A stretch of 64,000 bases of DNA from Bacteroidota bacterium. GTDB lineage: Bacteria > Bacteroidota > Bacteroidia > M30B66. The DNA is taken from assembly GCA_027490225.1 (NCBI GenBank), contig JAIXYK010000040.1:17520-81519 (forward strand), read 5' to 3'. The notes under the pieces are model-generated. The model was not told the DNA's origin and did not search any database. It saw only the letters and a program-made list of their open reading frames with translations. Positions 23,587-24,243 of this stretch are shown piece after piece. How positions within the stretch are numbered: the stretch's first letter is position 1; each line of letters opens with the position of its first letter. A program made the translations under genes and the position numbers.

Positions 23587-23829
23587 TTTGATAAATCAAT
23601 ATTAATTTTTGTGAATGAAATAGATTAAGTTTTATAAATTGATTTGCTAATTGTTTTCTGAATTAATAAAAATTTCAGATTCGTTTTTTTGCAGCATTAT
23701 ATTAACTAATTGTTAAATTTTTGCAATTTTGTTCGGTTATTAAATTTTAATGAACATATAATCAAATAGTTATGTGTTGTTATGATTGAATTCAACTTTT
23801 TAATAGTAAAACCGAATTAAATTTTACAG

Positions 23830-23837
23830 TATGTTTG
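23830..23837 (+). promoter_or_regulatory. Candidate -7 promoter box TATGTTTG for the met leader/operon
   Basis: Fits TAnnTTTG; ATG of leader peptide 1 begins 5 nt after the box. No clear -33 element seen. Confidence 0.4.
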
Positions 23838-23842
23838 CACCC

Positions 23843-23917
23843 ATGATTCTTCAAACACTTTTATGTTGTCCTTGTATGATGCAGAAATGCAACAGGGCAA
23901 TGATATGTTTGAACTAA
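23843..23917 (+). CDS. Met/Cys-rich leader peptide 1 (MILQTLLCCPCMMQKCNRAMICLN)
   Basis: 24-codon ORF with 4 Met and 5 Cys codons including TGT TGT CCT TGT ATG ATG; followed by a terminator. In-frame upstream ATG at 23831 is possible. Confidence 0.7.
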   Translation: MILQTLLCCPCMMQKCNRAMICLN

Positions 23918-23936
23918 AAAAAATCAAACTTTTTCT

Positions 23937-23976
23937 AAAAGGCCCAATGCAATTTGCAAAGGGCCTTTTTCTTTTT
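23937..23976 (+). terminator. Attenuator terminator 1 of the met leader
   Basis: aaaaggccc aa tgca att tgca aa gggcctttt then tctttttac; 9 bp plus 4 bp stem and T-rich tail. Confidence 0.85.
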
Positions 23977-23995
23977 ACACCATTCGATAAATAAA

Positions 23996-24154
23996 ATGAC
24001 AAAAAATTCTAACAATCAATTATCAACTATAACTCAAAGGGAAAGATTAACTTCTGTTGATAGAATGATTGCATTTAAATCTATAAATATAAATATGATG
24101 ATGTGTTGTTGTATGCCTATAAACCGGCCGGAACAACTATATCACATAGCATAA
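23996..24154 (+). CDS. Met/Cys leader peptide 2 (52 aa, ...INMMMCCCMPINRPEQLYHIA)
   Basis: ATG ATG ATG TGT TGT TGT ATG run at 24095-24115 near the end of a short ORF, followed by a terminator before metY. Confidence 0.75.
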   Translation: MTKNSNNQLSTITQRERLTSVDRMIAFKSININMMMCCCMPINRPEQLYHIA

Positions 24155-24179
24155 GAATTTTGATTTTTGCTTTTTATAT

Positions 24180-24222
24180 AGCCCCTCCGGAAATAGTTCC
24201 AGAGGGGCTTTTTTGTTTTGTA
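24180..24222 (+). terminator. Attenuator terminator 2 of the met leader
   Basis: gcccctccggaa-atag-ttccagaggggc (one mismatch) followed by ttttttgttttgt. Confidence 0.9.
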
Positions 24223-24243
24223 ACCTTTTAATTTTTATATACA

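Follow-up and report, generated by a model that had tools for sequence, protein, structure and literature searches.

The metY-metX-hom locus described here raises the question of what two short open reading frames (ORFs) with runs of Met and Cys codons, each followed by an intrinsic terminator, are doing between a Bacteroidota-type promoter box and the first gene. Having analysed a 64,000-nucleotide stretch of a Bacteroidota genome (hereafter the window) together with metY loci from related genomes, we consider it very likely, on the strength of sequence comparison and fold modelling, that this leader region comprises two ribosome-mediated Met/Cys transcription attenuators arranged in series.

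Organisation of the leader region

The initial annotation had placed two successive modules, each a Met/Cys ORF with a terminator, ahead of metY, metX and hom. The three gene assignments hold, consecutive genes overlap, and every element of both modules is present where that annotation had placed it:

23830-23837, + strand: promoter-like -7 box TATGTTTG, fitting the Bacteroidota TAnnTTTG type
23843-23917, + strand: leader 1 ORF, ATG to stop, MILQTLLCCPCMMQKCNRAMICLN; counterparts in eight other tandem loci
23864-23881, + strand: leader 1 control codons Cys Cys Pro Cys Met Met (TGT TGT CCT TGT ATG ATG)
23888-23898, + strand: leader 1 region 2 (TGCAACAGGGC), putative antiterminator 5′ arm within the ORF, complementary to 23942-23951
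23942-23951, + strand: leader 1 region 3 (GCCCAATGCA), putative antiterminator 3′ arm, also part of the terminator 5′ half
23937-23976, + strand: terminator 1, stem 23937-23969 (-17.3 kcal/mol), then a T-tract to 23976
23996-24154, + strand: leader 2 ORF, ATG to stop, 52 aa, ending in NINMMMCCCMPINRPEQLYHIA; counterparts in eight other tandem loci
24095-24115, + strand: leader 2 control codons Met Met Met Cys Cys Cys Met (ATG ATG ATG TGT TGT TGT ATG)
24124-24142, + strand: leader 2 region 2 (CCGGCCGGAACAACTAT and following bases), putative antiterminator 5′ arm within the ORF, from the stalled-ribosome fold
24176-24189, + strand: leader 2 region 3, putative antiterminator 3′ arm, extending into the terminator 5′ arm
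24180-24219, + strand: terminator 2, stem 24180-24209 (-20.2 kcal/mol), then a T-tract to 24219
24244-25590, + strand: metY, O-acetylhomoserine sulfhydrylase (TIGR01326, above cut-off)
25568-26611, + strand: metX, homoserine O-acyltransferase (best NCBIfam match TIGR01392, under its cut-off)
26593-27819, + strand: hom, homoserine dehydrogenase (NF004976, above cut-off)

The Bacteroidota sigma-A -7 consensus is TAnnTTTG at -12 to -5 (PMC9723704). Judged from the position of the TATGTTTG box, transcription would start near 23842, which would make leader 1 nearly leaderless. Each of the nine loci that carry the tandem arrangement, the window included, has a TAnnTTTG-like box 4-22 nt 5′ of its first leader's ATG, and this box reads TAAGTTTT in one and TATCATTG in another. 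That terminator 1 might belong to the preceding gene was considered and ruled out, since the promoter-like box sits between that gene and leader 1. An Rfam search of the window matched no family, neither the SAM-I riboswitch nor the T-box. Two genes 5′ of the leader region, on the same strand, lies a gene for an MsrB-type methionine sulfoxide reductase (TIGR00357, 22357-22887), a possible functional neighbour.

Recurrence of the leaders

Two Met/Cys leaders with two terminators precede metY in eight further loci: one in a genome of the window's own family (G002, locus L002), one in a Flavobacteriales metagenome-assembled genome (L032), three from metagenomes (L111, L112 and L114) and those of G194, G216 and G223 (L202, L211 and L219). 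The metY-metX-hom gene order is conserved in L111, L114 and L032. Mapped onto a MetY tree, the tandem arrangement takes about five changes, at least two of which are forced by well-supported branches (the bootstrap is not fully settled), so that on this tree it has been gained or lost more than once. Two further genomes, G063 and G098 (L197 and L213), carry two Met/Cys leaders 5′ of metY in which a simple scan recognised no terminators, and L261 (G100), whose MetY is divergent (54% identical), has a terminator behind a Met/Cys leader, MKAIAKRNMICCKMMQMCIPHCYCQK, at -409 to -297 from metY.

Chance is rejected as the origin of these ORFs. Of 159 upstream regions of orthologous metY loci, 57 contain an ORF that begins with ATG and reaches 6/8 Met/Cys or more, compared with 0 on the reverse strand and 0.0 in forty dinucleotide shuffles per region; the loci compared here and below are related and not independent. 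Cys codons within the runs comprise 253 TGT and 144 TGC, and 54 of 61 loci use both, a mixture suggesting that selection acts on the residue rather than on the bases.

Within the 3.77-Mb genome of the window, seven ORFs reach at least 6/8 Met/Cys, and leader 2 is the only one free of overlap with another long open frame. A genome-wide regulon of Met/Cys leaders was therefore rejected, the other six each overlapping long open frames. Among the genome's arrays of short ORF, terminator and gene, leader 2 ranks first, with 7/7 Met/Cys in its best stretch; the runner-up has 5/7, of other residues. Other amino-acid attenuators, sought as positive controls in a simple scan of such arrays, did not stand out, an absence that counts against the two-attenuator reading.

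Recurrence also bears on whether both leaders are in use. A single working gate, most likely leader 2, with the other module a decayed or constitutive terminator beside a chance or relic ORF, would fit the weaker run of leader 1 (5/8) and the many relatives that have one leader only. We nevertheless regard it as improbable: none of the nine tandem loci has lost the run, region 2 or terminator of leader 1, and the promoter-like box stands immediately 5′ of this leader.

Nor does the conservation resemble that of an arrest peptide. In such a system it would be the nascent leader peptide that stalls the ribosome, on sensing a small molecule such as Met, Cys or SAM, and not empty tRNAs at the control codons. 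Short ORFs 5′ of a terminator would fit this reading too, and an HMM(C)C motif does recur in several leaders. Beyond the Met/Cys runs, however, the peptides vary in length and sequence, where an arrest peptide would be conserved outside the control codons; Met and Cys swap positions between leaders, and a search of the protein collection gave no homologue of leader 2. Arrest by the peptide is thus very improbable. In L202 and L211, from two genomes of one family, a common block near GCGATGTTGACGCATAGTTTCAGGT spans the leader 2 stop codon, which exceeds what the attenuator model needs.

Antiterminator pairing and the proposed mechanism

In all 18 modules of the nine tandem loci, the coding segment behind the run is complementary to the terminator 5′ arm. 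Compared with shuffled leader segments, this pairing of regions 2 and 3 gave a combined p of 9e-13 over the 18 modules, which come from related loci and are not independent, and 1.6e-7 for a 12-module set; 14 modules had their own terminator among the four best of the 18, where 4 were expected. Leader 1 of L114 pairs CCCGGAGGGCA with AGCCCTCCGGA (-22.4 kcal/mol), and leader 2 of L002 pairs CGTGTCTGGAT with CTCCAGACACT (-16.4 kcal/mol). For the window taken by itself the pairing is not significant (p 0.08 for leader 1 and 0.23 for leader 2), so the case for an antiterminator is drawn from the module family. The leader region has the hallmarks of an attenuator that can be examined by computation, with a translated-looking leader ORF rich in product codons, an intrinsic terminator between the ORF and the first gene and 3′ of the promoter-like box, and a predicted competing antiterminator whose significance is that of the module family.

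For a half-transcribed terminator, the fold model gives -14 to -28 kcal/mol when the ribosome stalls at the run's first codon, compared with 0 to -6.2 kcal/mol when it stands at the stop codon. The window's own values for these two ribosome positions are, respectively, -14.6 and -0.5 kcal/mol for leader 1 and -15.4 and -2.0 kcal/mol for leader 2, where the stalled-ribosome fold pairs 24176-24189 with 24129-24142. The folds thus predict that a ribosome stalling in the run would lead to antitermination and one at the stop codon to termination. In full-length minimum-energy folds the terminator stem is preferred even when the ribosome is stalled (frayed end pairs aside), so the choice between the two structures would have to be kinetic, which limits what the fold model proves.

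In the scheme that we propose, of which the signal (tRNA charging), the direction of the response and the series logic are what we infer, transcription would begin at leader 1 or just 5′ of it. When both Met-tRNA and Cys-tRNA are charged, the ribosome would cross the run and the antiterminator segment, the terminator would form and transcription would end; when either tRNA is scarce, the ribosome would stall in the run, the freed segment would pair with the terminator 5′ arm and RNA polymerase would continue. Leader 2 would then repeat the test of leader 1, so that metY would be reached only by RNA that had passed both gates, an arrangement expected to reduce leakage. As each leader reads both Met and Cys, shortage of one or the other would open each gate. 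Severe Met shortage could itself block initiation of the leaders, which would count against the model: the fold without a ribosome includes the terminator in 11 of 12 modules, and lost initiation would therefore favour termination.

The ORFs, their runs, the terminators, the promoter-like box, their order, their recurrence and the complementarity of the arms can all be read from the sequence and its comparison, and the switching between RNA states is a prediction of folding models. The earlier proposal of ribosome-mediated attenuation through two serial gates has been strengthened by this comparison. It had called for an alignment of the regions upstream of metY in relatives, and these proved to conserve the Met/Cys runs, with paired terminators in the eight other tandem loci and the antiterminator segment in every module.

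Apparent exchange with the SAM-I riboswitch

Most other metY loci have, in the place of leader 1, a SAM-I riboswitch, with a mainly cysteine leader downstream. Among 78 loci with a SAM-I match within 900 nt of metY, a short ORF begins 0-15 nt past the aptamer in 63, and in 52 of these at 7-10 nt, compared with 10.2 (maximum 18) under random placement. Cys accounts for 38% of the final 12 residues in these SAM-linked ORFs vs 1.6% of the remainder. The aptamer lies 7-10 nt 5′ of the ATG of a Cys-run leader in L005, L033, L035, L042, L055, L057, L064, L067, L084 and others, spread over many Bacteroidota, and on this sequence evidence may gate translation of the adjoining leader. A simple finder detected few obvious U-run terminators behind the SAM-linked Cys leaders, which may act through Rho or translation.

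The window and all of the tandem loci gave no SAM-I (RF00162) match before metY, the absence of SAM here and below meaning no match with the models used. In a class sample of 80 metY upstream regions, drawn evenly rather than ranked by similarity to the window's MetY as the best-80 samples were, 35 had SAM and one leader, 14 SAM only, 6 two leaders without SAM, 5 one leader without SAM and 20 neither; SAM and tandem leaders never occurred together (0/49 vs 6/31, p 0.002). Codon content differs as well, Met making up 0.51 of the run in the nine tandem loci vs 0.17 in 83 SAM-linked leaders (p 1e-6).

This shift from Cys to Met/Cys where SAM is missing argues against a reading in which the ORFs encode functional Met/Cys-rich small peptides, for example metal-binding ones, and the terminators merely lower operon expression. 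Peptides rich in Met, Cys and His can bind metals, which lends that reading some general plausibility. The ORFs are linked to metY and highly variable, however, and encode pairing to the terminator right behind the run, and we regard a peptide function as exceedingly improbable.

For the two serial attenuators that we favour, the exchange suggests what leader 1 is for. The only SAM-I riboswitch above the cut-off in the window's genome sits 5′ of metH (G000 contig C35:91889-92003), and by this evidence the organism senses SAM at metH but apparently not at metY. Since leader 1 occupies the position that SAM-I holds in most relatives, its role is most likely methionine sensing, and the findings together suggest that leader 1 and Met codons replaced SAM as the methionine sensor. 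More generally, the metY leader of Bacteroidota could be an interchangeable two-slot device, a proposal for which we see about equal grounds for belief and doubt. Its upstream slot would report methionine status, through either a SAM-I aptamer or a Met/Cys leader with terminator, and its downstream slot would hold a cysteine-codon leader whose translation the aptamer would gate, making a composite SAM-and-Cys logic device; with loss of the aptamer, Met codons would enter the leaders, and the window would represent the SAM-less, all-peptide version.

A leader ending in a Cys run followed by Met-Pro lies about 90-125 nt 5′ of metY in L071, L089, L098, L102, L140, L155, L170 and L172. Three of them (L089, L098 and L102) have a perfect hairpin, ATGCCGTAAGGCAT, built from the Met-Pro-stop codons, its loop holding the stop codon; the others go on with QG or EG. 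These leaders are possibly a separate release or stalling device.

Significance

The proposed mechanism would extend classical ribosome-mediated attenuation to a methionine operon of Bacteroidota, with two full gates in series and two amino acids per gate. The position before metY is occupied by a SAM aptamer or by peptide leaders, and the codon content shifts as would be expected if the two substitute for one another, so that their exchange amounts to a natural experiment on sensor replacement in evolution. The leaders also offer a way to test the coupling of transcription and translation in a phylum where Shine-Dalgarno sequences are largely missing. The metY leaders look like unannotated small genes distributed across the phylum.

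Comparison with known systems

Full-text literature searches, covering open-licence papers only, found neither a Met/Cys tandem nor a Cys leader coupled to a SAM riboswitch. Within the same phylum, leader-peptide attenuation has been suggested before amino-acid biosynthesis operons of Flavobacterium psychrophilum (PMC9723704); the main text of that paper names no Met/Cys tandem. A screen for premature terminators has described the switching of sensor types at one gene, and placed leader-peptide systems, before its own Firmicutes case, only in Proteobacteria and Actinobacteria (PMC2965389). The SAM-I riboswitch of other Bacteroidota shares the operon position before metY, and presumably the purpose, of the leaders described here, but it is an RNA aptamer for SAM, which the window and all tandem loci lack.

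With respect to the amino acid read, the nearest systems are the polycysteine leaders of actinobacteria and a cysS leader of Rhodobacterales. Actinobacterial polycysteine leaders are reportedly leaderless, to judge by the title of Canestrari et al. 2020, and leader 1 of the window is probably nearly so. They are likewise short ORFs with Cys runs before sulfur genes, but no terminators were found there (PMC1262725), whereas both modules of the window have terminators, and Met codons in addition. The uORFC-8-2 before cysS in Rhodobacterales is likewise a leader ORF with Cys codons, has an intrinsic terminator and is predicted to act by attenuation (PMC8632094); it has only a tandem Cys pair, no Met and a single module, and belongs to a different phylum and gene.

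The proposed mechanism is that of the trp/his/leu/ilv-type attenuators of Proteobacteria, with which the window shares a short ORF of product codons, an intrinsic terminator and a competing antiterminator; ilvB-II of Corynebacterium (PMC10272879, as described in PMC11109978) is a ribosome-mediated attenuator of the same type. The trp/his/leu/ilv-type systems named have one leader that reads the pathway's own amino acid or acids, whereas the window, in Bacteroidota, mixes Met and Cys in two full serial modules.
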